64,000 bases of DNA from Solwaraspora sp. WMMD791. Lineage in GTDB: Bacteria > Actinomycetota > Actinomycetes > Mycobacteriales > Micromonosporaceae. A program made the translations under genes and the position numbers. The stretch lies in contig NZ_CP120737.1 of the NCBI RefSeq assembly GCF_029581195.1, positions 496,001 to 560,000 on the forward strand, given 5' to 3'. Each line of letters starts with the position of its first letter. Within the stretch, counting starts at the first letter, position 1. This document shows positions 4,042-22,901 of the stretch, piece by piece. The notes under the pieces were generated by a model. That model was not told where the DNA came from. It did not search any database and was given only the letters and a program-made list of their open reading frames with translations.

Positions 4042-4842
4042 TCAGCCGGCCGTTGTCGGCAGTACCGCGTAGACGTCACCGGCGTTGGCAGTGTGCGGCA
4101 GGTCCCGCAGATGCCCGGCCATCTCCTCGGCGGACACCCAGCGGTCGAAGCTCAACTGCTGGGTCTCGCCGAGCGCGAGATCGTAACGGTAGTCGCCGAG
4201 CGTGGCGAGTCGGCGCAGACAACGCAGCGCGCTGTCCCGCTGAATGGTGGTGAACTCGAAGGACAGCGCCGGCAGCGGCACGGTCAACCCGGCGAGGACG
4301 GCTTCCTCGAACCCCTCGACGTCGATCTTGACGAACGCGGGCCGGCCGTGGGTGGCGATCAGCTGATCCAACGTGGTCGTCGGTACGTCGAGTTCGGCGT
4401 CCCAGACCTGGTCGGCCCAACCGCCGGCACCGGCGGCGGCGCCGACGAACGCGGCCGAGGCGGTGGAGACCGTCGGGTTGGCCGAGTTGATGAACATCCG
4501 CACCGATCCGACCACCTCGCCGCAGGCGGACTCCAGCACGGTCACCGCCGGGTCGTCGGCGTAGACGACCCGTACGGCGCGGGCACACAACGGCTGCGGC
4601 TCCAGTGCCACGACCTGCGCACCCAACCGCCGGAAGCTGCCCACCCGGTCCCCGACGTGCGCCCCGACGTCGAACACCAGATCGCCGGGAGCGACGAAGC
4701 GCCGGTAGAGCCGGTCCATGGCGGCGTCGCGACCCGGGTCGCCGTAGTAGAACTCCAGCGAGCGGCGCAGCCCGGCCAGCTGTGGATCGGCGGCCAGGGC
4801 ACGGGCCGCCACGTCCGGTCGTGGCAGGTCGGCGGCGCTCAT
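4042..4842 (-). CDS. FkbM-family SAM-dependent methyltransferase, last gene of the siderophore operon
   Basis: A 266-residue methyltransferase. The SAM-binding motif I is DVGAHVGDR (residues 58-66), followed by ALEPQP (79-84). The FkbM-family motif VKIDVEGFEEAVLAG sits at 171-185. Family members O-methylate sugars, polyketides and other natural products. The ATG at 4842 overlaps the stop of the acylase/acyltransferase gene in an ATGA junction, so the two should be translationally coupled. A longer in-frame extension to 4932 is possible but would cover an extra 90 bp of the upstream gene. Its place at the end of a tightly overlapping siderophore operon suggests that it methylates the siderophore or a precursor, for example a hydroxyl, carboxylate or hydroxamate oxygen. 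This is inference; the substrate is unknown and desferrioxamine pathways do not need such an enzyme. Confidence 0.88.
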   Translation of the reverse strand: MSAADLPRPDVAARALAADPQLAGLRRSLEFYYGDPGRDAAMDRLYRRFVAPGDLVFDVGAHVGDRVGSFRRLGAQVVALEPQPLCARAVRVVYADDPAVTVLESACGEVVGSVRMFINSANPTVSTASAAFVGAAAGAGGWADQVWDAELDVPTTTLDQLIATHGRPAFVKIDVEGFEEAVLAGLTVPLPALSFEFTTIQRDSALRCLRRLATLGDYRYDLALGETQQLSFDRWVSAEEMAGHLRDLPHTANAGDVYAVLPTTAG

Positions 4843-7496
4843 CGGGCCATCGTACGGGCCAGGAACGCCAGCTGGGCCCGCTTGTCCGCCAGCTCCAGCT
4901 GCGTGTCGAAGACGAAACCGAGCCGCTTCCACCGGCGCAACGCCGGCTCGTTGCGGACGTCCGGTTCGATGACGATCCGCTGGTGCCGGGGGTCACCGAA
5001 CAGGTATCCGGTGAACGCGGCGGCGACGGCGTCGGTGAACCCGGGGATCCGACGCCGGGCCGGGGCGAGGAACAGGTGGATTCCGATGTCCCCGTCGCGG
5101 ACCGGGTAGTGCTCCCCGAGCGGGTCCTCGGCCGGCTCGTAGGTCTGGAAGATCCCCACCGGTTCGTCGTCGACGCTCATCAGGTAGGCGTGGTGCGAGT
5201 CCAGGCTGTCGATGAACCGGTAGATCTCGCCGACCTGTTCCCGGGAGTGCCGGGTCATCCCCCAGAACCGGGCGCGGGGCTCGGTGACCCATCGGTACAC
5301 CAGGTCGAGGTGCAGGTCGGGGTCGAGCACCGTCAGGTCGAACCGGCCGATACCCGGTAACTGGCGGGAGTGGACGGTGGCCAGCATCCGCCGCCGCACA
5401 CCGTCGACGCCGACGCTGTCGACCCCCGGGCCGCCGGTGGCCGGCGTCCACCGCACCCGGGCGACCGGGACCAGGTCGCCGGCCGCCCAGCGGGGCAGTT
5501 GGTCGGCGAAGTGCCGGTCGTCGGGTCGGCCCGACGCGCCGAACGGCACCACCCACCGGCTGGCGTCCGGATCGGCGAGGTCCCAGACGTAGCGGGCCAC
5601 CGGCCCACGCCAGCAGAGGTCGGAGACCCCGGGAACGCTGGCGGTGGCCAGCACACAGTCGGTGTCGCCGGCGAGCGGTACGGGTGGGCCGAGAGCGCTG
5701 GCCGCCGGGTCGACCGCCGCCGGCAGCACCCGGACCGGATGCAGCCGGTGCCGCTCGCCCCAGGTGCCGGGCTCCGGGCCGGCGGCCACCTCCGTCAGCG
5801 CCGCCAGCGCGCAGCGGGCCGGGTCGCCGCCGAGGCGGGCAAGCCCGTCGATCACTCGTTCCAGGGCCAGTCCGATCCGGCCCACGGGGTCGGTCCAGGG
5901 GGCGAACAGCGGGTCGTAGCCGGTGTCGGCGCGCAGCGGCCGTAGACCCGGCTCGTCGGACAGGTGCCGGGTCAGCGCCGTCCGCCAGGCCGCGAACGCG
6001 CCGGCCCCGGTGCTGTCGGCGGCCATCCGCCCGTCCCAGTCGAGCAGCCGTGCGCGCAGGCCGCGTACCGGCTCGGGTTGTCCGGTGAGGTCGAGACCGC
6101 GCAGCAGCCGGCGCAGCCCGGCGGCCGGGGCCACCGGGTCGGTCTGCACCGCCTCGGGCGCCGTACCGGCAGCGACCAGTTCCCTGATGCGCCGGGCCCG
6201 GTACGGCGGTGCGAAGTCCACTCCGAGGTGTGCGGTGTCCCCCCGCCGGTCGTTGGCGTTGACGGCGACCGACTCGACGTCGGCGGCGGGCAGCGTGGCG
6301 TACCCGTCGCGCCAGGCGTACCGGGGTGCCCAGCCCGGCACCGGCAGCAGCCGGCACCGGTCGTCGCGCTCCGGCACCCGGCCGGCCACCAGCCGGCGTA
6401 CGCTGCCGGACCGGTCGGCGACCAGCACACTGTTGACCGGCTCCACCCAGTGCCGCAGTGCCTGTTCGACGTCGGCGGCCCGGCGGGCGCGCAGCAACGG
6501 CAGCAACGCCTCGAACCCGAGCGCCCCGTCGGCCCGGCTCGGTGTGCGCAGGCTGATCGCCTCCCCGGTACGCCGGTCGATGTCGACGACCGGCCCGCGC
6601 GGGGTCTCGATCACCTCCACCTCGACCGGCGCACCGTCACGTACCTCGATCAGTTCGGTGTGCGCCGGCACCGGAGTCCAGCCGTCGGCTTGGCGGACCA
6701 GGACCTGACCGTCGACCCGGCGCAGCTGTTCGCGGTAGAGGTCCTGGTAGTCGGCCATCGCGTTGGTGATCGCCCAGGCGACCGTGCCGGCGTGACCGAA
6801 GTGCGGCAGCCCCGGTACGCCGGGGAAGGCGAACCCGACGACGTCGAACTCCGGGCAGGTCAGCTGCACCTGCTGGTAGACGCCGGGTAGCTCCAGGATC
6901 CGGTGCGGATCCCCGGCGATCACCGGTCCGGTCGTGCCGGGCCGTCCGGTGACCGCCCAGGCGTTGCTGCCCGACGACGCGGGTGGCTCCATGGCGAACA
7001 GGTCGACGGCTGCCGGGCCCAGGGTGGCGGTGACGTGCGCCCGCCACAGCTTGCTGGGGAAGGTGCCGAAGAGCACGTGCTGTACCAGGAACACCCCGAG
7101 CGGGGTCCACGGCTGCCAGGTGCCGGCGGTGGTGCCGGTGGCGGCGAACTCGGGGGCCGCCGCCGCCCCTTCGGCCAGCCCGGCGTTGACCCCGTCGACG
7201 TACGCGCTCAGCCAGCGTCGGGTCGCCGGGTCCAGTCGCCGGTAGCACCGCTGGGCGGTGTCGTCGAGGCGGACCCGGCGGGCGAACCGGTCCCAGGCGA
7301 CCTCGGCCGGGCCGAGCCGGGCGGCCAGCGCGCCTTCCGAACGCCAGCGTTCGACCTCGATCTGCCAGGCCCGGTCGGTCGCGGCGGTCCGTCCCTGCAG
7401 GTACGCCAACTGGTCGACGTCGTCGGCCCACAGGTGCGGTACGCCGTACCCGTCGCGGTGCACCCGGCCGACGGGGTCCGCTGGCGGTGCGCTCAT
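4839..7496 (-). CDS. Penicillin acylase-family amidase fused to a DesC-like siderophore N-acyltransferase
   Basis: An 885-residue two-domain protein. Residues 1 to about 700 are an Ntn-hydrolase of the penicillin/cephalosporin acylase family. It opens with HRDGYGVPHLWADD, and SSGSNAWAV marks the autoproteolytic site, giving Ser177 as the new N-terminal nucleophile after Gly176. Later AWAITNAMADYQDLY contains the expected oxyanion/catalytic region. No signal peptide is visible, whereas most such acylases are exported, so it probably works in the cytoplasm. Residues 708-885 form a GNAT domain of the siderophore type (HYPVRDGDIGIHLFL, VIEPDVRNEPALRRWKRLGF), like DesC/RhbD and similar to the domain in the adjacent gene. 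ATG at 7496 overlaps the upstream stop (ATGA). The fusion joins an amide-hydrolysing with an amide-forming domain; editing, acyl exchange or side-chain tailoring of the siderophore are all possible. I recall penicillin-amidase-like genes near desferrioxamine loci in related genera, but cannot verify that here. Confidence 0.9.
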   Translation of the reverse strand: MSAPPADPVGRVHRDGYGVPHLWADDVDQLAYLQGRTAATDRAWQIEVERWRSEGALAARLGPAEVAWDRFARRVRLDDTAQRCYRRLDPATRRWLSAYVDGVNAGLAEGAAAAPEFAATGTTAGTWQPWTPLGVFLVQHVLFGTFPSKLWRAHVTATLGPAAVDLFAMEPPASSGSNAWAVTGRPGTTGPVIAGDPHRILELPGVYQQVQLTCPEFDVVGFAFPGVPGLPHFGHAGTVAWAITNAMADYQDLYREQLRRVDGQVLVRQADGWTPVPAHTELIEVRDGAPVEVEVIETPRGPVVDIDRRTGEAISLRTPSRADGALGFEALLPLLRARRAADVEQALRHWVEPVNSVLVADRSGSVRRLVAGRVPERDDRCRLLPVPGWAPRYAWRDGYATLPAADVESVAVNANDRRGDTAHLGVDFAPPYRARRIRELVAAGTAPEAVQTDPVAPAAGLRRLLRGLDLTGQPEPVRGLRARLLDWDGRMAADSTGAGAFAAWRTALTRHLSDEPGLRPLRADTGYDPLFAPWTDPVGRIGLALERVIDGLARLGGDPARCALAALTEVAAGPEPGTWGERHRLHPVRVLPAAVDPAASALGPPVPLAGDTDCVLATASVPGVSDLCWRGPVARYVWDLADPDASRWVVPFGASGRPDDRHFADQLPRWAAGDLVPVARVRWTPATGGPGVDSVGVDGVRRRMLATVHSRQLPGIGRFDLTVLDPDLHLDLVYRWVTEPRARFWGMTRHSREQVGEIYRFIDSLDSHHAYLMSVDDEPVGIFQTYEPAEDPLGEHYPVRDGDIGIHLFLAPARRRIPGFTDAVAAAFTGYLFGDPRHQRIVIEPDVRNEPALRRWKRLGFVFDTQLELADKRAQLAFLARTMAR

Positions 7497-9913
7497 CGGG
7501 TCGGCACCGCCACGGTGGCGAGCGGGTTGTCCTGTGTCCCGGCATAGATCAACGACCCGGCCTGGTCGGTGAGGTCCACCATCTGCAGGGTGTTGCGCAG
7601 CTGCAGCCGGTTGAGGCAGGAGTGCCGGAACGTCGGGGCGAAGAAGTCCAGCCGGTCGCGCAGCTGCGGATGGTCCGCGCCGTGGGTCCGGACGCAGTCG
7701 GCGACCAGCCGCCAGAACTCCCCGGCCGGCAGGACCCCGTCGGCGTCCAGGATCGCGGCGAGGAACCGTAGGAAGCCGTCGAAGACGTCGGTGAAGATGG
7801 CCAGCACCCGGAACTCGTCGTCGACCGACATCCGGATCCGTTCGACGGCGGCCGGCAGCGGCCGGTCGTGCAGGGCGACGACCTCCTCCCCGATGTCTTT
7901 CATGAAGACCCGGACCGGGACGTGGTCCTGCAGCACGAGAATCAGGTTCTCCCCGTGCGGCATGAACGCCAGGTCGTAGCCGAGCAGGCAGTGCAGCAGC
8001 GGTCGCAGGTAGGCGCGCAGGTACCGGGTCAGCCAGTCGGTGGCCGTCAGCCCCGACGCCGCGATCATGGCGGTCGCCAGATGCGCGCCGTCGCGGTCGC
8101 GGTGCAGCAGGCTGGCCATGGTGGCCAGCCGCTGCCCGGGGGCGATCCGGGGGACCGGGCTCTCCCGCCACAGCGCGGCGAGCATCCGCTGGTACGCCGA
8201 TACCGGTGCGCCGCTGCGGTGGTACGCGTCGCCGGTGTAGCCGACGGACGCCAGTTCCCGCAGCACCTCGAACCCGCAGTCGCGCAGCGTGTCGTCGGCG
8301 GCGACCAGGTCGGCGACCCAGTCGTTGATCGGCGGGGTGGCCCGCATGTACGCCGGGGACAGCCCGCGCATGAAGCCCATGTTCTGGATGGACAGTGCGG
8401 TCTTGACGTAGTGCCGGTGCGGCGCGTCGATGTTGAAGAAGGTACGGATCGACTGCTGTGCCCGGTACCGGTCCGGGCTGGTGCCGACCGGGACGATGGC
8501 CCGGGCCGCCACGTCGGCGGCGAAGGTGATGCCGACCTTGTGTTCCCACTGCCACGGGTGCACCGGCAGGTACCGGTAGGCGTGCGGGTCGAGGCCGAGG
8601 TCGCGCAGCCGGTCGGCGAACCGGTGCAGCGTGTCGGCGCCCAACTCGGCCAGGTAGTGCGCCTGCTCGTCGACGCCCCGCCCGGCGGTGAAGGTGCTCA
8701 GGTCCCGGCGGACCGCGAGCCAGACCAGCCGTACCGGGGCACCTGCCTCCGGCGCGTAGGCCGCGTGGTCGGTCAGGCCGAACCCGATCCGGCCGTTGTT
8801 GGCGACGAACAACGGGTGACCCTCGGTCATCGCCGATTCGATGGTCTGGAAGTCCGCGTGCACCAGGTCGGCGGCGCGTTCCCGCCGATGGTGGTGTTTC
8901 CAGGCGGCGCCGGCCAGGGTGGCGCTGATCTCCTCCAGGTAGGTGCCGAGCAGCTTCGGTGGGATGCCCAGTGTCTCCTGCAGTTCGATGATCAGGTCGA
9001 GGGCGTCCGGCGGTGCCGGCGCGCCGTCGACCTCGCGGGTCACCGTCGCCGGGTCGATCAGCCAGTGGTCCAGGGCGTAGCGGCGGGCCCGGAACCGGTA
9101 GTGGATCCGTTCGGCGGTGGTCAGCAGGTAGCTGCCGCCGTCGGCGGCGGCCGGCACGGACCCGTCGGGTCGCGGCTGGATCAGCCGCTCGTGGCTGAAC
9201 TCGGCGATCGCCTTGGCGACGAGATGGCGGTGGGCGACCGCGATGGTGGCGGGGTCGAGGTGCGCCGGTGGGGTCATCGACGACGCGGACCGGTCTTTGC
9301 CGGCTGCCGGCGGGCCGGCTGCCGGGTCGCCAGCCGCCACGCCGGCACCGGGCGCACCGCCGAGCGGGCTGGCGGCGAACGCGGCCCGGGTGCAGAAGCT
9401 GAGCCTGGCCTGCTTGTCCGGCAGCGGGATCAGCCCTTCGACGACGAAGCCGGCTTCGGCGTTCTTGGCGGCGATCGCCTCGTTGCGGACGTCGGGTTCG
9501 ACGACGACCCGCAGGTGCGCCGGGTCGGCGAAGATGAACGCCAGCACGGTACGCATCACCGCCGAGGTGAGTCCGTGCCGCTGCCCGCCGGCCGGTGGCG
9601 CGACCAGCACGTGCATCCCGACGTCGCCGGGCCGGACCGGGTAGTGGGTGGCGAGTTCGCTGTGCGCCGGCTCGTAGGTTTCGGCCAGGAACAGCGGCTC
9701 GCCGTCGAGTCGACCGAGCCAGGCGTGGTGGTGCGGGTCTGCGTCGATGCGCTCGTACTCGCGCCGGACCGCGTCGAGGTCGGCATCGGGCATTCCCCAG
9801 TAGACGGACCGGGGATGGGTGATCCACGCGTGCAGATGCCCGGCGTACGACGTGACGTCGAGTGGCTCGACGGTCATGGTGCCCAGCGGACCGGACAGTG
9901 AGAAGGTGATCAT
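7493..9913 (-). CDS. DesC-DesD fusion: N-hydroxydiamine acyltransferase and NIS synthetase
   Basis: An 806-residue fusion. Residues 1 to about 180 are a GNAT acyltransferase that would acylate N-hydroxycadaverine (or the putrescine analogue) with an acyl-CoA such as succinyl-CoA; the motifs are HYPVRPGDVGMHVL and VEPDVRNEAIAAKNAEAGF. A Gly/Ala/Pro-rich linker (about 180-212) leads to an IucA/IucC-type synthetase (about 213-806). That domain carries EGHPLFVANNGRIGFG, the LPVHPWQWEHK region, ALSIQNMGFMRGLSPAYM and HGENLILVL. It would adenylate the carboxylate and join or macrocyclise the hydroxamate units, as DesD does. Met213 could be an internal start, but no Shine-Dalgarno precedes it and the frame is continuous, so a true fusion is likely. 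A comparable DesC-DesD fusion is known in enterobacterial DfoC. ATGA overlaps link it to both neighbours. Confidence 0.93.
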   Translation of the reverse strand: MITFSLSGPLGTMTVEPLDVTSYAGHLHAWITHPRSVYWGMPDADLDAVRREYERIDADPHHHAWLGRLDGEPLFLAETYEPAHSELATHYPVRPGDVGMHVLVAPPAGGQRHGLTSAVMRTVLAFIFADPAHLRVVVEPDVRNEAIAAKNAEAGFVVEGLIPLPDKQARLSFCTRAAFAASPLGGAPGAGVAAGDPAAGPPAAGKDRSASSMTPPAHLDPATIAVAHRHLVAKAIAEFSHERLIQPRPDGSVPAAADGGSYLLTTAERIHYRFRARRYALDHWLIDPATVTREVDGAPAPPDALDLIIELQETLGIPPKLLGTYLEEISATLAGAAWKHHHRRERAADLVHADFQTIESAMTEGHPLFVANNGRIGFGLTDHAAYAPEAGAPVRLVWLAVRRDLSTFTAGRGVDEQAHYLAELGADTLHRFADRLRDLGLDPHAYRYLPVHPWQWEHKVGITFAADVAARAIVPVGTSPDRYRAQQSIRTFFNIDAPHRHYVKTALSIQNMGFMRGLSPAYMRATPPINDWVADLVAADDTLRDCGFEVLRELASVGYTGDAYHRSGAPVSAYQRMLAALWRESPVPRIAPGQRLATMASLLHRDRDGAHLATAMIAASGLTATDWLTRYLRAYLRPLLHCLLGYDLAFMPHGENLILVLQDHVPVRVFMKDIGEEVVALHDRPLPAAVERIRMSVDDEFRVLAIFTDVFDGFLRFLAAILDADGVLPAGEFWRLVADCVRTHGADHPQLRDRLDFFAPTFRHSCLNRLQLRNTLQMVDLTDQAGSLIYAGTQDNPLATVAVPTR

Positions 9914-11271
9914 CGGCTCAGCGCCTCCTGCCGGTGGGCCGGCGTCGGTGTGTCCGTGGCATCGGGCGCCGTCGACGGCGCGCCGTCGGGCAGCGCGCCG
10001 AAGTGCTGGAAGGCGATCCGGTGCTCCACGGGGTAGACCTCGCGGCCGAGCATGTTCGCGATGATCACCGAATTGCGGTACGGACCCATGCCCAGGTCGG
10101 GCGCGGTCAGGCTGTGGGTGTGCTCCTCGGCGTTCTGCACGAAGATCTCCCGGTCGGCGTGGTCGACGCTGTAGCCGACGGCCACGTCGAATCGGCCCCG
10201 CCCGTCCCACCGGATCCGGTCGCGGACCGGGTCGAGAAAGGCCGGTACGGCCGGCCGGTAGCCAGTGGCCAGGATCAGCCCTTCGGTGTCCAGCGTGAAG
10301 TGGCGGTCCTGTTCCTGGTGGTGCAGGGCGAGTCGGTACCGTCCGGGCCCGGCGTCCCATTCGGCGCCGGTCAACGCCGTCCCGGTCAGCAGGGTGGTCG
10401 GCACCGGCCCGGCCACGTCCTTGCGGTACAGGGTGTCGAAGATGGTGTTCACCAGGTCACCGCTGATGCCCTTGTAGAGGCTGCGCTGGTCCCGGTTGAG
10501 CCGGTCGCGGCTGGCCGGCGGCAACGCGTGGAAGTAACGGACGTACTCCGGCGAGGTCATCTCCAGGGTCAGCTTGGTGTACTCCATCGGGAAGAACCGG
10601 GGCGAGCGGGTGATCCAGTTCAGCTGGTGACCCCGGGTGTCGATCTCCTCCAGCAGATCGAGGTAGATCTCCGCGGCGCTCTGCCCGCTGCCGACGATGG
10701 TGATCGACTCCATCTCCTGCAGCCGGGCCTTGTTCGGCAGGTAGTCGGCGCTGTGGATGGCCGGGCCGGGCAGGTCGCGCAGCACCGCCGGGCGGTACGG
10801 GACGGTGCCGATGCCGAGCACCAGCCGCCGGGTCCGCAGCGTCTCGACGGTCCCGGTGCCCGATTGCCGTACGTGCACCAGGTAGTCGCCGCTCGCCGCG
10901 TCGTGGGTGACCTGTTCGACCCGGTGGCCGAACCGGATGGCGGGCAGCTGCGCCGCCGCCCACCGGCAGTAGGCGTCGTACTCGGCGCGCAGGGGGTAGA
11001 AGTCCTCGCGGATGTAGAACCGGTAGAGCCGGCCGGTCTGCTTGAGGTAGTTGAGGAAGGAGTACGGCGAGGTCGGGTCGGCCATGGTGACCAGGTCGGC
11101 CAGGAACGGCACCTGGATGCTGACGCCGTCGATCATCAGCCCGGGGTGCCAGGCGAACTCGTCGCGTTGCTCCAGGAACACCCCGTCGAGTTCGTCGAGC
11201 GGCGCGGTCAGGCAGGCCAGCCCGAGGTTGAAGGGGCCGAGGCCGACCGCGACGAAGTCATGCGTGCGCAT
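9910..11271 (-). CDS. L-lysine/diamine N6-monooxygenase (DesB-like)
   Basis: FAD- and NADPH-dependent N-hydroxylase of the IucD/SidA/PvdA family, expected to turn cadaverine (or putrescine) into its N-hydroxy form in the cytoplasm. The FAD site VGLGPFNLGLACL is at residues 9-21, the NADPH site GSGQSAAE at 194-201, and the C-terminal ATGY motif lies near residue 340. The active-site stretch FPMEYTKLTLEMTSPEY is well conserved. The length of 453 residues is normal, and the last 35 residues are a Pro/Thr-rich tail. The ATG at 11271 overlaps the end of the decarboxylase gene by 14 bp, and the stop overlaps the next start (ATGA). It follows the decarboxylase as in desferrioxamine operons. Confidence 0.95.
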   Translation of the reverse strand: MRTHDFVAVGLGPFNLGLACLTAPLDELDGVFLEQRDEFAWHPGLMIDGVSIQVPFLADLVTMADPTSPYSFLNYLKQTGRLYRFYIREDFYPLRAEYDAYCRWAAAQLPAIRFGHRVEQVTHDAASGDYLVHVRQSGTGTVETLRTRRLVLGIGTVPYRPAVLRDLPGPAIHSADYLPNKARLQEMESITIVGSGQSAAEIYLDLLEEIDTRGHQLNWITRSPRFFPMEYTKLTLEMTSPEYVRYFHALPPASRDRLNRDQRSLYKGISGDLVNTIFDTLYRKDVAGPVPTTLLTGTALTGAEWDAGPGRYRLALHHQEQDRHFTLDTEGLILATGYRPAVPAFLDPVRDRIRWDGRGRFDVAVGYSVDHADREIFVQNAEEHTHSLTAPDLGMGPYRNSVIIANMLGREVYPVEHRIAFQHFGALPDGAPSTAPDATDTPTPAHRQEALSR

Positions 11272-12805
11272 TGGCGCCCACCTCCGTGGCGATGGCGGCC
11301 GGCGGGGCGGGCAGGAGGGCCGGGTCCCATTCGGCGTCGAGCAGTTCGGCGCCGGCCCGGCGGATCAGATCGATCACGGTACGCAGATCTTCCACTGTCG
11401 TGTTGGGGTTGAGCAGGGTGAACTTGAGCCAGTAGTGGCCGTCGATGGTGGTGCCGGCGACGATCGCGGCACCGTCACCGAACAGCCGGGCCCGCAGCCG
11501 GGGCAGCAGTCGGTCGCAGTCGGCCTCCGCGAGCCAGCCTGGTCGGTAGCGGAACAGCACGGTGCTGAGCACCGGCCGCATGGCGACCTCGAAATCCTCC
11601 TGCGCGGCCAGTTCGTCGTGCGCGACCCGGGCCAGGTCGACGACCCGGTCGAACATCTCGCCGAGCTGCTGGGCACCGATGGTGCGCAGGGTCAGCCACA
11701 GCTTCAACGCGTCGAAGCGGCGGGTGGTCTGCAGGCTCTTGTCGACCTGGTTGGGCACGGTCGCCGTACGCGGATTGAGGTAGTCGGCGTGGACGGCGAT
11801 CCGCCGCATGGTCGCCGCCTCCCGGACCACGATGGCGCTGCAGCTGACCGGCTGGAAGAAACTCTTGTGGAAGTCGACGGTCACCGAGTCGGCGTGTTCG
11901 ATGCCGTCGAGCAGCGCCCGGCGCCGGCCGGAGACCAGCAGGCCACAGCCGTACGCGGCGTCGACGTGCAGCCACACGGCGTACTCGCGGCAGACCGTGC
12001 TGATCGCGGCGAGCGGGTCGACGCAGCCCCGGTCGGTGGTGCCGGCGGTGGCGACCACCGCCATCGGGACGAGGGCCTGGGCGCGGAGCAGGTCGACCGC
12101 GGCGCGCAGCGCGACCGGGTCCATCCGACCGGTTTCGTCGGTGGCGACCGGTACGACGGCGTCGGCGGCCAGCCCGAGCAGCCGGGCGGACTTGCCGACG
12201 CTGAAGTGGCTCTCCTGGGTGGCCAGGATCCGCAGCCGGGGGAGCACCGCGTCGCGGCTGATCCCGGCGGCGGCGCCCCGATCGCCGGGGGGATGCCCGC
12301 CGTCGGATGCCCGGGCCAGCCGGTCCTCCCGGGCCAGCAGCAGCCCGTGCAGGTTGGACTGGGTGCCGCCGCTGGTGAAGACGCCGTCGGCGGTGGGGCC
12401 GAAGCCGATCCGCTGCGCGGTCCAGTCGATCATCCGGCGTTCGATCAGGGTGCCGCTGGTGCTCTGGTCCCAGGTGTCGACCGAGGAGTTGACGGCGGCG
12501 AGCAGCAGTTCAGCGCTGAGCGCGGGAATCGCCACCGGGCAGTTCAGGTGCGCGAGGTAGGTGGGTTCGTGGAACCAGACCGCGTGGTCGAGGTAGAGCG
12601 CGCCGATCTCGTCGAGCACGGCCCCGGTGGTGCCGAGCGGCGTGTCGAGATCGACGCGGTCGACCATCGCCTGCAACGTCGCGACACCGGCCCCGGAGTA
12701 CGGCTGGCGGACCGTGCGGACGCGGTCGGCGAGCCGGCCTGCGGTCTGGTCGATGCTGGACACGTAGGCGTCCACCGTGTGCCGGCCGAAAAGATGTGGG
12801 TACAT
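11258..12805 (-). CDS. PLP-dependent diamine-forming decarboxylase (DesA-like lysine/ornithine decarboxylase)
   Basis: First enzyme of the siderophore operon. It is a group II PLP decarboxylase that should make cadaverine from lysine (or putrescine from ornithine). The PLP-binding Lys314 is in DFHKSFFQPVSC; Asp282 in HVDAAYG contacts the pyridine nitrogen, His200 in QESHFSV stacks on the ring, and TAGTTDRGCVDPL is typical. Length 515 residues. I chose the ATG at 12805 because GGAGGGG lies 5 bases upstream. The in-frame ATG at 12829 has no ribosome-binding site, and the iron box begins exactly there, so it would lie in the operator. A stretch near residues 165-185 (Gly/Asp/Ala-rich) looks like an insertion. 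Iron repression is expected. Confidence 0.93.
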   Translation of the reverse strand: MYPHLFGRHTVDAYVSSIDQTAGRLADRVRTVRQPYSGAGVATLQAMVDRVDLDTPLGTTGAVLDEIGALYLDHAVWFHEPTYLAHLNCPVAIPALSAELLLAAVNSSVDTWDQSTSGTLIERRMIDWTAQRIGFGPTADGVFTSGGTQSNLHGLLLAREDRLARASDGGHPPGDRGAAAGISRDAVLPRLRILATQESHFSVGKSARLLGLAADAVVPVATDETGRMDPVALRAAVDLLRAQALVPMAVVATAGTTDRGCVDPLAAISTVCREYAVWLHVDAAYGCGLLVSGRRRALLDGIEHADSVTVDFHKSFFQPVSCSAIVVREAATMRRIAVHADYLNPRTATVPNQVDKSLQTTRRFDALKLWLTLRTIGAQQLGEMFDRVVDLARVAHDELAAQEDFEVAMRPVLSTVLFRYRPGWLAEADCDRLLPRLRARLFGDGAAIVAGTTIDGHYWLKFTLLNPNTTVEDLRTVIDLIRRAGAELLDAEWDPALLPAPPAAIATEVGANAHA

Positions 12806-12828
12806 GGACCCCTCCAAGACCGCCTCCA

Positions 12829-12847
12829 TAAGGGTAACCTAACCTAA
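12829..12847 (-). promoter_or_regulatory. IdeR/DmdR iron box of the siderophore operon
   Basis: On the minus strand the 19-mer TTAGGTTAGGTTACCCTTA matches the actinobacterial iron-box consensus TTAGGTTAGGCTAACCTAA at 16 of 19 positions. It sits 24 bp upstream of the decarboxylase start chosen here and overlaps the alternative upstream ATG. Under iron-replete conditions Fe-IdeR/DmdR should bind and repress the five-gene operon. A degenerate second half-site (TTAGGCGAGGCTA, plus strand 12849-12861) adjoins it and could serve the divergent MFS gene. I found no convincing -35/-10 pair for this operon. Confidence 0.85.
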
Positions 12848-13052: not shown

Positions 13053-14315
13053 GTGAGCACGCTGGTCCAGCCGGGCGCGACCACCGGGCACCCGACCCCG
13101 CCGGCAGCTGACGGGCGGTTGCGGACGCTGACCGCGCTGTACGTCACCCAGTTTCTCGGCTTCGGGTTCATCACGATCGGGCTGACCGGCATCCTGCGAG
13201 CCGGCGGCACCTCGCTGGAGACGCTCGCGCTGCTCAACCTGATCGGTCTGATCTGGCCGGTCAAGTTCCTCTGGGCACCGGTCGTCGACCGGTACGGGCC
13301 CCGACGCGGCGGCCACTACCGGTCGTGGCTGCTGGTCCTGCAGTCCGGCATGGTGCTCACCCTGCTGGCACTGCTCGCGGTAGACCCGGCCACCGGGCGG
13401 ATCGGCCCGATCGTACTGATCTGCGCGATGTTCGTGTTCCTGTCGGCGACCCAGGACATCGCGGCGGACGCCCTCGCCGTCCGGCTGCTGCGCCGCCGGG
13501 ACCGGGGTGCCGGTAACGGGATTCAGGTGGCCGCCAGCTACGTCGGCAACATCCTGGGCGGTGGTGCCTGCGTCGTGGTCTACGACCGGTTCGGCTGGGC
13601 CGCCGCCGTCGGGCTGCTCGCCGGGCTCACCGCCGTCGGGCTGCTGGTGGTGTGGCGGTTCCGTGAGCCCGACCGGGTCGCCCGGCCGGCCGGCACCCGT
13701 CAGGCGTACGGCGCGCTGCTGTCCGTGCTGCGCCAGCCCGGCTGCCGCAGCTGGGTGCTCGGTGTGGTGCCGCTGCTCTACAGCGGGGCCGGCGCCGCCT
13801 ACGGGATGGTGTCGCCGGCGCTGGTCGACGCCGGCTGGCCGCTGCAGCGGATCGGCTTCGTCACCGGCGTCGTCACCAGCGTGCCGGCGGTGATCGCCGG
13901 TCTGGTGGCCGGCGGCCTGGTCAACCGGATCGGCCGGACCGGGGTGCTGCTGGTCGGCGGTGCCTCGCTCGCCGCCGCGACCACGCTGCTGCTGCCGATG
14001 CTGACCGGGCGGGCCCCGACCGGGTTCACCACCGTGGCACTGTGCTGTTTCATGGCGGCGTACACCGTGGCCAACGTGGCGCTGTACACCGTCAACATGG
14101 ACTACTCACGGCCGGCGTCCGGCGGCACCGACTTCACCGTACTGTCGTCGTTCGGCCTGATCTGCTCCTACCTCGCGGCGGCGCTGGGCCTGGCCGTCGC
14201 CGCCCGGGCCGGCTACCCGCCCGTCGCGGCGGTCGCGATAGTGTTCATGCTCGCTGGCGTCGTCATGGGGCTGCGTCACCAACGGCGTCATCCGCCGGTG
14301 CCGGCCGCCGGGTGA
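13053..14315 (+). CDS. MFS transporter of the AmpG/RhtX type, probably for siderophore transport
   Basis: A 420-residue major facilitator with about twelve hydrophobic helices. TM1 contains ALYVTQFLGFGFITIGL, and the loop motif SATQDIAADALAVRLL (around residues 131-146) is the signature shared by AmpG permeases and RhtX/FptX-type siderophore transporters. GTG start with AGGAGG six bases upstream. It is divergent from the iron-boxed siderophore operon (about 250 bp between starts) and followed by an iron-regulated GNAT on the other strand, so a role in siderophore export or ferri-siderophore uptake is likely. The direction cannot be decided from sequence. RhtX/FptX relatives import siderophores, whereas desferrioxamine operons often carry MFS exporters. 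No siderophore ABC importer is in the window. Confidence 0.85.
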   Translation: MSTLVQPGATTGHPTPPAADGRLRTLTALYVTQFLGFGFITIGLTGILRAGGTSLETLALLNLIGLIWPVKFLWAPVVDRYGPRRGGHYRSWLLVLQSGMVLTLLALLAVDPATGRIGPIVLICAMFVFLSATQDIAADALAVRLLRRRDRGAGNGIQVAASYVGNILGGGACVVVYDRFGWAAAVGLLAGLTAVGLLVVWRFREPDRVARPAGTRQAYGALLSVLRQPGCRSWVLGVVPLLYSGAGAAYGMVSPALVDAGWPLQRIGFVTGVVTSVPAVIAGLVAGGLVNRIGRTGVLLVGGASLAAATTLLLPMLTGRAPTGFTTVALCCFMAAYTVANVALYTVNMDYSRPASGGTDFTVLSSFGLICSYLAAALGLAVAARAGYPPVAAVAIVFMLAGVVMGLRHQRRHPPVPAAG

Positions 14316-14894: not shown

Positions 14895-14913
14895 TCAGGT
14901 TAGGCTTACCTAA
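14895..14913 (-). promoter_or_regulatory. IdeR/DmdR iron box upstream of the GNAT gene
   Basis: The 19-mer TCAGGTTAGGCTTACCTAA (plus-strand reading) matches the consensus TTAGGTTAGGCTAACCTAA at 17 of 19 positions, better than the box of the main operon. It overlaps the predicted -10 element and transcription start of the GNAT gene, the classic place for iron-dependent repression. It lies 12 bp before the chosen ATG. Confidence 0.9.
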
Positions 14914-17627: not shown

Positions 17628-19259
17628 CTATCGCTTCGGGTCGGCGGTCGCGGCGTCCCCTGTGTCGCGTACCCGGTGCAGGCGCCGGTACAGCGGAGCG
17701 AGGCGACCGTGCAGGTCACGGTAGACGGCGAAGATGTCGTCGTAGCGGGCGCGGTGCGCGGGGGTGGGCGTGAAGACCCGGTCGGTACGCAGCAGCGCCG
17801 GGATGTCGTCGAACGCCACCGCCCCGGTGCCGACCGCACCGATCCAGCCCGCGCCCCGTACGTTCACCTTCACCGGGTCGGGATCCCGGCGCACCTGCAC
17901 GTCGAGCACGTCGGCGAGGATCTGGCACCACGCCGTCGACCGGGCACCGCCGCCGGTGACGGTGAGGGTGGTCATCGGGGCGCCGAGGAATCGGCCGACC
18001 GGCCCGGACAGCCACCGGGTGTTGAACGCCACCCCTTCGAAGACGGCCCGCAGCAGGTCGGACCGGTTGGTGTCCAGGGAGATGTTGAGGAACCCGGCGC
18101 GCAGGTCCGGGTCGTCGACCGGGGCGCGTTCGCCGTACAGCCACGGCATGTAGAGCACTCCGTTGGCACCGGCCGGCACCGTCGGGATGATCACGTCGAA
18201 CGCGTCGAAGATGGACCGTTCGTCACGGCTGAGATGCCCGGCACCGATCAGCGGGTCGTCGTACTCGACGATCTTGTCCTTCAGCCAGGTCAGGTTCGCC
18301 CCGGCGGTGGCCTGCAACGCGGTCATCAGGTAACGGTCGCCGATCGCGCAGGGCACCGAGGCGATCTGCGCGACCGGGTCGGTCTTCTTCGCCCGCACGT
18401 GGGCGGCGATCCACGACGACGTGCCCAGGTACAGGTGCGGGTCGTTGTCGGCGATGGTGCCGGCACCGACCGCGGCCGCGGTGTTGTCGATCGCACCGGC
18501 CACCACCTGGACCGAAGCCGGCAGGCCCAGCTGCGTGGCGGCGGCCGGCGACAGCGTGCCGATGACGTCGGTGCAGGCCACGATCGGCGGCAGCTTGTCG
18601 GCGTCGATGCCGCAGTCGGCGACCAGGGCGGGGGAGTAGCGGATCCGGTCCGGCCGGCGGTTGTCGGTCACCCAGGAGGTCAGGATCGAGTCGACGGTGG
18701 CCACCGTGCGACCGGTCAGCTTGAGGTTGATCCAGTCCAGCGCGTTGAGAAACGTCGCGGTCCGCGCGTACACCTGCGGCATGGTGTCGCGGACCAGCAG
18801 CATGTGCGCGGCCGGGTCCTTGCCGGTGGGCGAGGGCATGCCGCCGGTCAGCCGCAGCCAGCGGACGATCCGCCGCAGCGACATCCCCTGGTACGCCGGG
18901 AAGCCGCCGAACTGGCGGCGCAGATGCGCCGCGCCGCGCATGTCCAGCCAGGTGATGCACTGCGTCAACGGCTGCCCGGCGGCGTCCACGGCGATGGTGC
19001 CCTCACCCTGGCTGGAGGAACAGACCGTGGTGACCGCGCGCAGATGCTCCGGGTGGGCGCGACCCAGCTCGGCGACGACCTCGATCAGCGCGGCCCACCA
19101 CGCCTGCGGATCCTGTTCGGCACCACCGCCGGGCAGCACCCGCAGCGGCACCGCGTACTCGGCCCAGCCGGTCACCGTACCGTCGGCGGCGACCAGCGCG
19201 GCCTTCATCCCCGAGGTGCCCAGATCGATCGCCAGCACCTGCGGCGGGACGGCCGGCAT
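17628..19259 (-). CDS. FGGY-family carbohydrate kinase (xylulokinase-like)
   Basis: A 543-residue sugar or polyol kinase that should phosphorylate a ketose, alditol or sugar acid with ATP. The N-terminal phosphate loop is AIDLGTSGMKAAL (residues 10-22). WLDMRGAAH is the substrate loop, VAGAIDNTAAAVGAG holds the catalytic Asp, and TVTGGGARSTAWCQILADVL is the C-terminal nucleotide site. ATG start with GAAGGGG upstream; it begins 5 bp after the stop of the aldolase/aminotransferase fusion. Kinase plus class II aldolase is a common catabolic pairing: the kinase would supply a phosphorylated ketose or tetronate that the aldolase cleaves. The exact sugar is not decided by sequence. Confidence 0.9.
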   Translation of the reverse strand: MPAVPPQVLAIDLGTSGMKAALVAADGTVTGWAEYAVPLRVLPGGGAEQDPQAWWAALIEVVAELGRAHPEHLRAVTTVCSSSQGEGTIAVDAAGQPLTQCITWLDMRGAAHLRRQFGGFPAYQGMSLRRIVRWLRLTGGMPSPTGKDPAAHMLLVRDTMPQVYARTATFLNALDWINLKLTGRTVATVDSILTSWVTDNRRPDRIRYSPALVADCGIDADKLPPIVACTDVIGTLSPAAATQLGLPASVQVVAGAIDNTAAAVGAGTIADNDPHLYLGTSSWIAAHVRAKKTDPVAQIASVPCAIGDRYLMTALQATAGANLTWLKDKIVEYDDPLIGAGHLSRDERSIFDAFDVIIPTVPAGANGVLYMPWLYGERAPVDDPDLRAGFLNISLDTNRSDLLRAVFEGVAFNTRWLSGPVGRFLGAPMTTLTVTGGGARSTAWCQILADVLDVQVRRDPDPVKVNVRGAGWIGAVGTGAVAFDDIPALLRTDRVFTPTPAHRARYDDIFAVYRDLHGRLAPLYRRLHRVRDTGDAATADPKR

Positions 19260-19264
19260 CCCGT

Positions 19265-21565
19265 TCAGACCCCTTCTACCTGTGCGAACACCCGGTCGAA
19301 CCGCTCCAGCGCGGTGTCGATCACCTCGTCGGTGTCGGCCATCGAGGTGTACATCCGGGAGCCGGCCAGGGTGACGATCCCGTGCGCCGTGTACGCCGCT
19401 CCCATCTGCTCCATCAGCCGCTTGCGGGCCTTGTTCTCCTTCAGCAGCTTGATCGGATTACGCATGTCGAGCAGCATGACGCCACTGCACTCCAGATGCA
19501 CGATCGACCCCTGGTTGTACGCCACGTACGGCAGCCCGTAGCGGTCGATCAGCCGTTGCAGCCCCCGGGTGAGCCGGTCGCCGGCCCGCCCGGCGATCAC
19601 CGGGGCGTTGGTCCGGGCCATCTCGGCGATGGCGAAGTAGCCGGCCGCGCAGGACAGCGGATTCGCCGACAGGGTGCCGCCGACCTGGATGTGCGCGCCG
19701 CTGCGGCCGTCGAGTCCGGAGCCGAAGACCGCCATCACATCGGACCGGCCACCGACGCCGCCGGCCATCGGGTAACCGCCGGAGACCGCCTTGCCGAACA
19801 CGGTCAGGTCAGGGGTGACGCCGAAGTAGCCGGCCGCGCCGCCGAGCCCGGTACGGAATCCGGTGACGACCTCGTCGAAGACGAGCAGCGCGCCGAACTC
19901 GTCGCACAACTCACGGACCTTGGCGTTGAAGTCGTGGGGCACGGGGCGGGTACCGGACTCGGGGCCGAGCGGTTCGACGATCACCGCCGCCGTACCGCCG
20001 CGTACCCGGTTCTCGATCAGTTTGCGGCGCAGCTGGCCGAGGTCGTGCGGGAACGCCTCGCGGGTGTTGGCGGTGGCGCCGAACGGGATGCCCTTGGCGT
20101 TCATCCGGTACGTGCCCGGCACCCGCAGCCCGTACACCATCGTGTCGGACCAGCCGTGGTACGCCCCACCGACCTTGATCACCACGTTCTTGCCGGTGAA
20201 GGCGCGGGCACCGCGTACCGCGGCCATCACCGCCTCGGTGCCCGAGCCGAGCGACCGGTACATCTCGATGTGCGGCATGTACCGGTGGATGATCTCGGCG
20301 AGCTTCAGCTCGTACTCGTGGAACAGCCCGGTGACCGGCCCCGACTCTTTGACCACCGCGGCGACCTGCTCGTTGACCGGGCCGTAGTTGCTGCCCAGGA
20401 TCGTCGGGCCGCCGGCCTGCAGGAAGTCGATGTAGGTGTTGCCGTCGCGGTCGGTCAGGTAGGCGCCGTCGGCCGCGTCGATCGCCAACGGGAACGGGTA
20501 GTTGAAGGCCAGGTTGTGCTGCACCCCGCCAGGAATGCGCCGTTTGGCCCGGTCGGTGATCTCCTTGCTGGCCCGGCAGCGGTCGTTGAAGTAGCCGAGC
20601 ACGTCGAGCATCGCGTCGTGGCGCAACCCGCGCACCGGCTGGGCGACCAGGGCCTTGAGCCGGCGCATCGTGTCGTCGACGTCGAGGTACTCGGTGATCG
20701 CGTAGCCGAGTCGCGCGGACTCGCTGCCCAGTGTCTCGACGGCGGTGGTGTCGGCGGTCGGCCGCCCGGCGGCGGCGATCTCGGCCGCGATCGCGTCGGC
20801 GCTGGGCAGCTCTTCCTCGACCGGCACCCGCACCGGCGGCACCGACTCGGTGATCTGCGCGGCGATCCGCTTCTCGTCGGCGCGCAGCTTGGTGAAGGCG
20901 ATCTCCCGGATCGCGGTCGGGATGGTGTAGACCTTGCCGGACTCACTGGTCAACGCCAGCAGGTAGGCGATCGAGACCTTCTCCAGCAACGCCATGTTGA
21001 ACACCGCGCGGTCCGGGTCGGTGCCCAGCGCGACGACGCCGTGGTTGGCGATGATGAACGCGTTGTCGCCGCTGGCGACCTTCTTCTGCACGTTGCGGGC
21101 GAGGAAGCCGGTGCCGGACGGGGCGTAGTCGACGATCGCCACCTCGCGGCCGAGGAAGCGCACCTGTTCGTCGGTGAGCGCCGGGATCGGCCGCCGCAGG
21201 AACGCCAGGGCCGAGGCGTACGGCTGGTGGGTGTGCACGATCGCATTGACGTCGGGCCGCTGCCGGTAGATGTTGGCGTGCATCCCGGCCTCGATCGACG
21301 GGGCGAGATCGCTGCCGGTGCCGTCGGGTACGTGCGTACCGTCGAAGTCGACCAGGCAGATGTCCTCCACCCGCATCCGGTCGTAGTCGTAGTTGCTCGG
21401 CGTGACCGCGTAGAGACGGTGGCCGGGCACCCGCACCGACACGTTGCCCTCGGTGGCCTTGAGGTAGCCGCGCTCGAGCATGGTCCGGCACATGTCGACG
21501 ACGTGTTGGCGGGAGGTGCGGTGCAGCGTCACGGTGGCCTCCGGGTTCGCGGTGTCGTCCTTCAT
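19265..21565 (-). CDS. Fusion of a class II (fuculose-phosphate type) aldolase and a class III aminotransferase
   Basis: A 766-residue bifunctional protein. Residues about 15-225 are a class II aldolase/adducin domain. Its zinc ligands are His111 and His113 (VHTHQPYAS) and His175 (ANHGVVALG), with Glu92 in the SIEAGMH segment as catalytic residue. Residues about 335-766 are a class III (glutamate-1-semialdehyde-type) aminotransferase: PLP Lys592 in FGKAVSGGYP, Asp564 in VFDEVVTGFR, and SLGSGTEAVMAAVRGAR for the cofactor phosphate. Both active sites look complete. The ATG at 21565 is preferred because the ATG at 21634 lies inside an operator palindrome; its ribosome-binding site is weak. Coupling C-C cleavage or formation to transamination suggests that the aldehyde or keto product is aminated (or an amine deaminated) in one protein. 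Regulated with the facing PucR-type gene. Confidence 0.88.
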   Translation of the reverse strand: MKDDTANPEATVTLHRTSRQHVVDMCRTMLERGYLKATEGNVSVRVPGHRLYAVTPSNYDYDRMRVEDICLVDFDGTHVPDGTGSDLAPSIEAGMHANIYRQRPDVNAIVHTHQPYASALAFLRRPIPALTDEQVRFLGREVAIVDYAPSGTGFLARNVQKKVASGDNAFIIANHGVVALGTDPDRAVFNMALLEKVSIAYLLALTSESGKVYTIPTAIREIAFTKLRADEKRIAAQITESVPPVRVPVEEELPSADAIAAEIAAAGRPTADTTAVETLGSESARLGYAITEYLDVDDTMRRLKALVAQPVRGLRHDAMLDVLGYFNDRCRASKEITDRAKRRIPGGVQHNLAFNYPFPLAIDAADGAYLTDRDGNTYIDFLQAGGPTILGSNYGPVNEQVAAVVKESGPVTGLFHEYELKLAEIIHRYMPHIEMYRSLGSGTEAVMAAVRGARAFTGKNVVIKVGGAYHGWSDTMVYGLRVPGTYRMNAKGIPFGATANTREAFPHDLGQLRRKLIENRVRGGTAAVIVEPLGPESGTRPVPHDFNAKVRELCDEFGALLVFDEVVTGFRTGLGGAAGYFGVTPDLTVFGKAVSGGYPMAGGVGGRSDVMAVFGSGLDGRSGAHIQVGGTLSANPLSCAAGYFAIAEMARTNAPVIAGRAGDRLTRGLQRLIDRYGLPYVAYNQGSIVHLECSGVMLLDMRNPIKLLKENKARKRLMEQMGAAYTAHGIVTLAGSRMYTSMADTDEVIDTALERFDRVFAQVEGV

Positions 21566-21624
21566 CCTCGCCCGGAATCGGCGGCGGACCACCGTCGCGC
21601 GGGCAGCACGATCGACCCGGCGCT

Positions 21625-21641
21625 TTGTCACCATGTGACAA
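21625..21641. promoter_or_regulatory. Operator palindrome 1 (aldolase/kinase operon)
   Basis: TTGTCACCATGTGACAA has perfect 7-bp arms around a 3-bp centre. It lies 60 bp upstream of the aldolase/aminotransferase start and 85 bp upstream of the divergent regulator. A second, less perfect copy with the same 7-3-7 geometry occurs 75 bp away, so this is very probably the binding site of the adjacent PucR-type regulator. Confidence 0.75.
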
Positions 21642-21699
21642 TCAGTCGGGATCCGCCGGCCGGTTCGCGCCGGTCGGTACCGGCAGCGCTCCCCGGGCG

Positions 21700-21716
21700 T
21701 TGTCACCGGATGACAG
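21700..21716. promoter_or_regulatory. Operator palindrome 2, overlapping the regulator's ribosome-binding region
   Basis: TTGTCACCGGATGACAG repeats the 7-3-7 design of the first palindrome with two arm mismatches. It ends 9 bp before the GTG start of the regulator and covers the start of its AGGA Shine-Dalgarno, so binding here would give autoregulation. Centre-to-centre distance from site 1 is 75 bp (about seven helical turns), which would allow looping. Confidence 0.65.
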
Positions 21717-21725
21717 GATGATCGG

Positions 21726-22901
21726 GTGCAGGCAGCGGCAGTCACGGCGACGCCCTGGCGGCGGCTGCCGCCCGAGCTGACCGGCGCGATGCGGGCGCGG
21801 CTACCGGCGATGGCCGCCGCTGTCGCCGCGGCGGTCACCGATCTGACCCCGGGGTTCGCCGGGGCCGCCGACGCCAAGTTCCGCGCCGACGTGCGGACGG
21901 CCGTCGACGTGGCGCTGAGTCACTTCCTCGACCTGATCGGCACCGCCGACCCGGCGTTGCCGCCCGGAGTGCGGCAGGTCTTCGTCGCCCTCGGCGCGGC
22001 GGAGGCCCGCGAGCAGCGGGGCCCGGAGTCCCTGCTCGCCGCCCTGCGGGTGGCGTCCCGGCTGCTGCTGCGCCAGCTCGGTGAGGCCCTTGCCGAAGTA
22101 CGCCCCCTCGACGTGGCGGCGTTGGTCGACGCCGCCGACGCGGTCACCGGGTACGTCGACGAACTGGCGGCGGCCAGCACCGAGGGGTTCGCCCGGCAGG
22201 TGCGCGAGCAGTCCGGCGAAGGGGACCGGCTGCGTCGCCGACTCGCCGACGTCCTGCTCGCCGGTGGCACGGCACCGCCGGTGGTGACGGCCGCCGCGTA
22301 CCGCGCCGGCTGGCCGGACCTGGACATCGTCGTCCCGGTCGTCCTGCCGGCCCGACACGCCCGCGACGCGCGGTTCCGCTTCGGTGCCGACGGAATCGTG
22401 GTCGAGCGGGGCCGCGACGCCGTGGTGCTGGTACGCGCCGGTGCCCGTACCAGGCGTTCGGAGCTGGCCGACACCCTGCGGGGGCGCGGTGCGGCCGTCG
22501 GCCCGGCGCTGCCGTGGCAACAGCTGCCGCAGGCGGTACGGCTGGCCGAACTCGCCGCGACGGTCGTCGGCGCCGAACCGGTGGACGTCGTGTTCGTCGA
22601 GGACCACCTCACCGCGTTGGCGATCGGCGGTCAGCCCGACGCGTTGACGGTGCTCACCGCCCGCCGACTGGCACCGCTGGCGGCGCTGCCGGTCGACCAG
22701 CGTGCCGAGCTGCTGCGGACCCTGCACAGCTGGCTGCGGCACTGGGGCGCCCGCCGGGCCGTGGCCGCGGAGCTGTTCGTGCATCCGCAGACGGTCAGCT
22801 ACCGGGTCAAGCGGCTGCGGGAGCTGCTCGGCGACGACCTCGACGACCCGGACCGCCGGTTCGAGTGGCTGCTGGTGATGGCCGCCGGCGAGGTGGCCTG
22901 A
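21726..22901 (+). CDS. PucR/CdaR-type transcriptional regulator
   Basis: A 391-residue regulator. The C-terminal PucR helix-turn-helix is clear: LRTLHSWLRHWGARRAVAAELF leads to HPQTVSYRVKRLRELLGDDL (residues about 345-375). The N-terminal two thirds resemble the GGDEF-like and sensory parts of CdaR/PucR proteins, which respond to small-molecule catabolites. GTG start with AGGA upstream. It is divergent from the aldolase/kinase operon with 160 bp between starts, and two related palindromes lie in that gap, so local control of the operon and of itself is likely. The ligand is unknown, perhaps the sugar acid or phospho-sugar handled by the operon. Some relatives activate rather than repress. Confidence 0.85.
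   Translation: MQAAAVTATPWRRLPPELTGAMRARLPAMAAAVAAAVTDLTPGFAGAADAKFRADVRTAVDVALSHFLDLIGTADPALPPGVRQVFVALGAAEAREQRGPESLLAALRVASRLLLRQLGEALAEVRPLDVAALVDAADAVTGYVDELAAASTEGFARQVREQSGEGDRLRRRLADVLLAGGTAPPVVTAAAYRAGWPDLDIVVPVVLPARHARDARFRFGADGIVVERGRDAVVLVRAGARTRRSELADTLRGRGAAVGPALPWQQLPQAVRLAELAATVVGAEPVDVVFVEDHLTALAIGGQPDALTVLTARRLAPLAALPVDQRAELLRTLHSWLRHWGARRAVAAELFVHPQTVSYRVKRLRELLGDDLDDPDRRFEWLLVMAAGEVA

Follow-up and report, generated by a model that had tools for sequence, protein, structure and literature searches.

Why should a single bacterial protein join an enzyme that hydrolyses amide bonds to one that forms them? The question is raised by a gene of Solwaraspora sp. WMMD791 (Micromonosporaceae), which we examined within a 64,000-nucleotide stretch of DNA (here called the window: NCBI RefSeq assembly GCF_029581195.1, contig NZ_CP120737.1, positions 496,001 to 560,000; coordinates below are those of the window). 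The gene, desGH, encodes an acylase of the penicillin amidase family (DesG) fused to a DesC-like GNAT acyltransferase (DesH), and lies in an operon for the siderophore desferrioxamine (DFO). It is a further fused case of a system that has already been published, and we consider it likely that the fused enzyme carries out an acyl exchange, in which a succinyl-bearing monomer would be converted to an acetyl-capped monomer and, through the latter, to capped linear DFOs.

The gene consists of a single 885-codon frame (7496..4839, minus strand) with no internal stop and a closing TGA at 4839. Both domains were recognized by Pfam: Penicil_amidase (PF01804) at residues 11-679 (E 1.6e-147, profile positions 3-667 of 675), and Acetyltransf_8 (PF13523), a GNAT family, at residues 725-868 (E 3.4e-48). 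The AlphaFold model has two well-folded parts, with a mean predicted local distance difference test score (pLDDT) of 86. A first-pass annotation, made from the letters of this DNA alone, had described an acylase and a GNAT in one frame, had placed Ser177 directly after Gly176 and had given residues 708-885 as the limits of the GNAT. All of this was borne out: the 885-residue open reading frame (ORF) is uninterrupted, the coordinates and GNAT limits were correct, and Gly176 and Ser177 are both invariant in 109 homologues. As for the chance, which that annotation had also raised, that the two domains are made separately, neither a stop nor a frameshift lies between the acylase and GNAT domains of DesGH, and independent translation of the GNAT, from a start codon within the frame, was rejected, as Met704, the sole ATG near the junction, is absent in fused relatives of the same genus. 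Within the genus, 7 genomes were found to have the gene, and in every one of them it is fused. The cytoplasmic location proposed for the acylase is likewise supported. We found no signal peptide in DesG, and there is no room for one, since the acylase fold begins as early as residue 11 and, for 62 of the 109 homologues, 25 codons or fewer separate the in-frame upstream stop from the conserved Arg14; the signal peptide and export of secreted-type penicillin G acylases are thus lacking.

desGH is the fourth gene of a DFO operon that is preceded by a predicted iron box and runs desA, desB, desCD, desGH and then a gene for an FkbM-family methyltransferase. The first three genes overlap one another and lie on the strand of desGH (minus), whose ATG overlaps the stop of desCD (ATGA) and whose TGA overlaps the ATG of the methyltransferase gene. 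The best PDB relatives of the neighbours are DfoJ for desA, DesB and DfoA for desB, and DfoC and DesD for desCD. Homologues of DesA, DesB, DesC and DesD that are closest to DFO enzymes are accordingly all present, as in the DFO pathway that is independent of nonribosomal peptide synthetases, and the siderophore context suggested earlier holds good. The acylase qualifies as a DesG both by its PF01804 domain, with the autocatalytic Gly-Ser pair and the catalytic residues of N-terminal nucleophile (Ntn) hydrolases, and by its genome, which has desABCD and a PF13523 DesH fused to the acylase. This genome has one des-type cluster, two penicillin-amidase genes and two DesC/DesH-type GNATs, both of the latter in this operon; with desCD and desGH each fused, the whole pathway comprises four proteins. 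The box before desA, the first operon gene, is a sequence match that predicts an iron-regulated promoter, and iron boxes were found upstream of 66 of 80 desG loci as compared with 13 of 400 random stretches.

DesG and DesH were named by Augustijn et al. 2025 (PMC12161575), as a penicillin amidase family protein and a DesC-like acyltransferase, respectively, encoded in Streptomyces coelicolor by desJGH. Inactivation of desG in S. coelicolor lowered DFO-B ~1000-fold and inactivation of desH lowered it 16-fold, DFO-E going up in each case, and complementation was restorative for desG/desH; 9 DFO producers without desGH made uncapped DFOs only. The authors proposed that DesG de-succinylates N-hydroxy-N-succinylcadaverine (HSC) and that DesH re-acetylates the product, pointed out that S. 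atratus and Micrococcus have desGH in fused form, suggested a higher local N-hydroxycadaverine concentration as the benefit of fusion, and gave an antiSMASH rule in which DesG occurs with a PF13523 DesH within 1 kb (PMC12161575). A literature search aimed at a fused siderophore penicillin acylase/acyltransferase gave no match, and the precedent for the fusion came from that article. Set beside it, several ideas of the first-pass annotation require revision. It can no longer be said that none of the activities considered is needed by the classical route, as normal DFO-B production in S. coelicolor needs desG and desH. An exchange of acyl groups is indeed part of the published model, but takes place there on the hydroxamate monomer before assembly and not, as had been supposed, after it. 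Nothing points to an acyl donor other than coenzyme A (CoA), the published model having acetyl-CoA for the GNAT (PMC12161575). The implied uniqueness of the protein is not supported either, since fused DesGH is common in Actinomycetota and the fusion had been reported.

Loss of desG would likewise lower DFO-B and raise DFO-E, as reported, if DesG cut succinyl amide or hydroxamate bonds of assembled DFO-E or longer oligomers and DesH capped the freed amine or hydroxylamine, and the fold family does take bulky leaving groups (cephalosporins). We regard such editing after assembly as improbable. The reported model is one of exchange at the monomer, and DesD reportedly depends on a controlled ratio of HSC to N-hydroxy-N-acetylcadaverine (HSC:HAC) (PMC12161575); moreover, to obtain the two defined succinyl units of DFO-B from a symmetrical macrocycle would need a second specific acylation.

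Evidence of another kind on acyl exchange at the monomer comes from the acylase itself. In the alignment, Ser177, His198, Asn415, Arg433 and Arg436 are invariant in 109/109 DesGs, and a degenerate acylase was rejected on this ground. The nearest solved relatives of DesG by sequence are PDB entry 35sz, cephalosporin acylase N176 and D-succinylase, with penicillin G acylase well behind; by fold, the best match of the DesGH model is D-succinylase, followed by cephalosporin/glutaryl acylases and then by penicillin G acylase. Modelling of the N176 acylase indicated that R24b, Y32b, H57b, H70b, H178b, N242b and Y467b hold the substrate (PMC6712217), and Arg255 of glutaryl acylase, which by numbering from Ser199 is equivalent to position 57b, binds the glutaryl group (PMC8197700). 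We observed that the equivalents of Arg24b, Tyr32b and His57b, namely Arg199, Tyr207 and His232, are kept in all 109 DesGs, and DesG therefore aligns with the pocket of dicarboxylyl-type S45 acylases (Arg24b, Tyr32b, His/Arg57b). Judged from this alignment, the DesG pocket would suit an acyl group with a terminal carboxylate; succinyl answers this description, and phenylacetyl is disfavoured by it. Lys149, considered as a DesG-specific carboxylate ligand, was rejected, its KLWR motif being common to 4hsr and 35sz.

Phenylacetyl is of concern because of a 2017 hypothesis, as cited in PMC12161575, that DesG installs or handles phenylacetyl (aryl) groups, leading to arylated DFOs. Membership in the penicillin amidase family and the existence of aryl-capped DFOs are in keeping with that earlier proposal. 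Yet Arg199 and His232 of the dicarboxylyl-type pocket are invariant, penicillin G acylases come below the D-succinylase and cephalosporin acylases by both measures of relatedness, and in S. coelicolor, which has desG, no arylated DFO was found (PMC12161575); the hypothesis is thus very improbable.

The second half of the proposed exchange depends on DesH differing from DesC. A tree built from 135 GNAT domains placed all DesCs (beside DesD) on one side of a fully supported branch and the DesHs (beside DesG) on the other, although this support is to be read cautiously because long branches meet there. The two GNATs of the window fell one on each side, that of DesGH within the DesH clade. Glu74 is present in 32/32 DesCs, and DfoC and NcdE also have Glu there, whereas 99% of DesHs have Gln (Gln784 here); this difference may, as far as aligned sequences can tell, mark which acyl-CoA (acetyl- or succinyl-CoA) each GNAT prefers. 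Pocket size (position 73/783, Ala/Phe) was rejected as the cause of DesC/DesH specificity, since DfoC and NcdE, with Met and Phe at that position, break the rule. DesC is reported to take both succinyl- and acetyl-CoA (PMC12161575), so that mis-acylation is plausible and DesG might be a proofreading amidase that removes wrong acyl groups added by DesC or DesH, in which case the fusion would do no more than link editing with synthesis and would have no part in the balance of DFO-B and DFO-E. The S. coelicolor results are difficult to reconcile with this, since without desG one main product is almost lost and the other is unchanged or increased (PMC12161575), an effect on routing and not on fidelity, and we give proofreading very little credence.

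If acyl exchange is correct, the DesC part of DesCD would make HSC, part of which DesG would hydrolyse back to N-hydroxycadaverine. DesH would re-acylate the latter, most likely with acetyl-CoA, and DesD would take the acetyl-capped monomer as a chain end; the strain would then make capped linear DFOs (DFO-B type) and not solely the succinyl-only macrocycle DFO-E. Ntn-hydrolases of the penicillin amidase family self-cleave at Gly|Ser. The cytoplasmic precursor presumably does so at Gly176|Ser177, in which case the mature protein would consist of an alpha chain and a beta chain ending in DesH, the GNAT being carried at the beta-chain C-terminus on a flexible linker. We found no discussion of this two-chain arrangement in the passages of PMC12161575 consulted. 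Possibly, though we doubt it, the self-cleaved DesGH passes N-hydroxycadaverine from the Ntn site directly to the GNAT that its beta chain also carries, fused forms giving a higher share of capped DFOs than split forms, or else the pair edits assembled oligomers after their release by DesD.

It should be noted that several points weigh against acyl exchange. We found no measured activity for any DesG, and the gene-loss data concern unfused genes of another genus (S. coelicolor; PMC12161575). Deacylation followed by re-acylation is energetically wasteful, and a second, acetyl-specific GNAT alone might do. Also, three pocket positions are changed, to residues that are invariant among DesGs (His70b to Asn245, His178b to Asn355 and Tyr467b to Arg630), and the pocket argument draws on alignment to distant relatives (~36% identity). 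A further reading is that of a CoA-independent transacylase, in which succinyl or another acyl group passes from acyl-Ser177 to an amine: penicillin acylases are used in vitro for amide synthesis, and the CoA-dependent acylation here is done by a different domain, the GNAT, but no positive evidence was found and the ever-present GNAT partner makes a second transfer route unnecessary, so that this is the least credible reading of all.

How regularly the two activities occur together was examined across genomes. A scan of genome contigs with the fused query, from which the best 80 of 558 stretches encoding a relative were kept, was combined with loci from a family-wide search to give 101 distinct loci, comprising 66 fused, 28 split and 7 without adjacent DesH; the fused share in the scan set is biased upward because the query was fused and only the best 80 loci were retained. 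A less biased figure comes from a phylum sample of 397 genomes, in which DesG was present in 16 (5 fused, 11 with DesH adjacent). In the family of the window, Micromonosporaceae, 170 of 301 genomes have DesG. Fused forms were observed in Micromonospora, Dactylosporangium, Actinoplanes, Salinispora, Kribbella, Glycomyces, Streptosporangiaceae and many Streptomyces. When the arrangements were mapped onto the DesG tree, ~10 changes were required for the fused label and 9 for the split one, with starred branches forcing at least 6 and at least 8, respectively, counts that are approximate because the tree was made with FastTree. desG and desH thus fuse and split repeatedly.

The association of DesG with DesD and DesH is exclusive. 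In the phylum sample, DesD was present in 16/16 DesG genomes and DesG in 0/363 DesD-negative genomes (Fisher p 1.6e-19); in 18 DesD genomes no DesG was found at this cut-off, as an accessory role for DesG would predict. Among newly fetched loci of this sample, DesH was fused or directly downstream in 13/13. DesG without DesH was considered for the loci that lack an adjacent DesH (L028, L034, L040 (Asanoa), L036, L017, L018 and L023) and was rejected, as the genomes of 7/7 encode DesH elsewhere (51-64% identical to that of the window); one further locus, L054, is cut by a contig end. DesH is always in the same genome as DesG, so that what can be dispensed with is the fusion and not the partner.

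DesG and DesH set the output of DFO-B, a clinical iron chelator, versus DFO-E, and the fused protein offers a simple case in which to study the coupling of opposed reactions, amide hydrolysis and amide formation. The many switches between the fused and the separate state allow both kinds of enzyme to be compared among close relatives, and the pocket comparison names residues (Ser177, Arg199, His232 and Arg630) through which de-succinylation is directly testable. Beyond the published work, our analysis adds a census of the fused and split forms in evolution, shows how strictly DesG is tied to DesD and DesH, and offers a specific hypothesis on the pocket for de-succinylation.

Features of the des operon in the window (coordinates in window positions)
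Feature	Coordinates	Strand	Basis
desGH: fused DesG (residues ~11-679) and DesH (~708-885)	4839..7496	-	ORF, Pfam, alignment, AlphaFold model
DesG alpha chain, residues 1-176 (predicted)	6969..7496	-	autocatalytic cleavage at Gly176|Ser177, presumed from family
DesG beta-chain catalytic part, residues 177-679 (Ser177, His198, Asn415, Arg433/Arg436)	5460..6968	-	alignment
DesG candidate acyl-pocket residues Arg199, Tyr207, His232, Asn245, Asn355, Arg630	within 5460..6968	-	alignment
Linker, residues 683-705, predicted disordered (pLDDT < 50)	5382..5448	-	AlphaFold model
DesH GNAT domain, residues 708-885 (Gln784 at the Glu position of DesC)	4842..5375	-	Pfam, alignment
desCD: DesC GNAT fused to DesD (IucA/IucC-type NIS synthetase), DfoC-like	7493..9913	-	Pfam, PDB relatives
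desB: cadaverine N-hydroxylase family (closest solved relatives 6xbb, DfoA 5o8p)	9910..11271	-	Pfam, PDB relatives
desA: PLP decarboxylase (closest solved relative DfoJ 5o5c)	11258..12829	-	Pfam, PDB relatives
Candidate DmdR1/DtxR-type iron box, desA promoter, 16/19 matches	12829..12847	-	sequence match
FkbM-family methyltransferase, start overlapping desGH stop	4042..4842	-	Pfam

The true start of desA is probably the ATG at 12805. desCD is a single frame in Actinoplanes too; in Catellatospora and Micromonospora, DesC and DesD are in different frames. The FkbM methyltransferase gene is directly downstream of desGH in 7/7 genus genomes examined and is not beside desGH at other loci; its product might methylate the siderophore or be unrelated to it. 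Divergent from desA is a major facilitator superfamily (MFS) transporter gene (13053-14315, plus strand), the product of which resembles RhtX/FptX siderophore importers most closely, with a match below the cut-off of that family; its homologues (64-72% identity) adjoin desA in several Micromonospora and Dactylosporangium loci. A second candidate iron box (17/19, 14895-14913) is found just upstream of a gene (14888-14322, minus strand) for a 188-aa protein, which has a weak, below-threshold GNAT match (PF00583, E 0.0016) and is possibly an iron-regulated acetyltransferase. Further away, a single frame (19265-21877, minus strand) carries class II aldolase/adducin and class III aminotransferase domains, an unusual-looking fusion, and is adjoined by an FGGY-family sugar kinase gene (17628-19259).

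Of known systems, S. coelicolor DesG/DesH (SCO4049/SCO4050) and the fused DesGH of S. atratus and Micrococcus have the same domains, in the same order and the same pathway, as the protein described here (PMC12161575), and the fused homologue of S. atratus JCM 3386 (L063) was also recovered in our analysis. They differ in that desGH here belongs to the main des operon, where it immediately follows desCD, whereas S. coelicolor has a separate desJGH locus (PMC12161575), and in the FkbM methyltransferase gene that follows desGH here. The Pseudomonas N176 cephalosporin acylase (4hsr/4hst) and the glutaryl-7-aminocephalosporanic acid acylases are serine Ntn-hydrolases with the catalytic set of DesG; the 4hsr beta chain is 36% identical to DesG in the fold comparison and has the Arg24b, Tyr32b and His57b equivalents. 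In contrast to these acylases, DesG has no signal peptide, is fused to a GNAT and differs at 70b, 178b and 467b. The Cupriavidus D-succinylase (7ea4/7eby), the top fold match (E 1e-37, TM 0.63/0.72), also removes an N-succinyl group, but is 26% identical to DesG, acts on N-succinyl-D-amino acids and differs at the Tyr207 and Asn245 positions. PDB 35sz ('penicillin acylase family protein'), the closest PDB sequence to DesG (beta chain E 2.5e-114), keeps the equivalents of Arg199, Tyr207, His232, Asn245 and Asn355, yet lacks several DesG-invariant residues, for example Arg630, which is Val. Finally, Erwinia DfoC (5o7o) shares with the desCD product of the window its DesC-DesD fusion, and its GNAT is related to both DesC and DesH; it differs from DesGH in that it has no acylase and in that its GNAT has Glu where DesH has Gln784.

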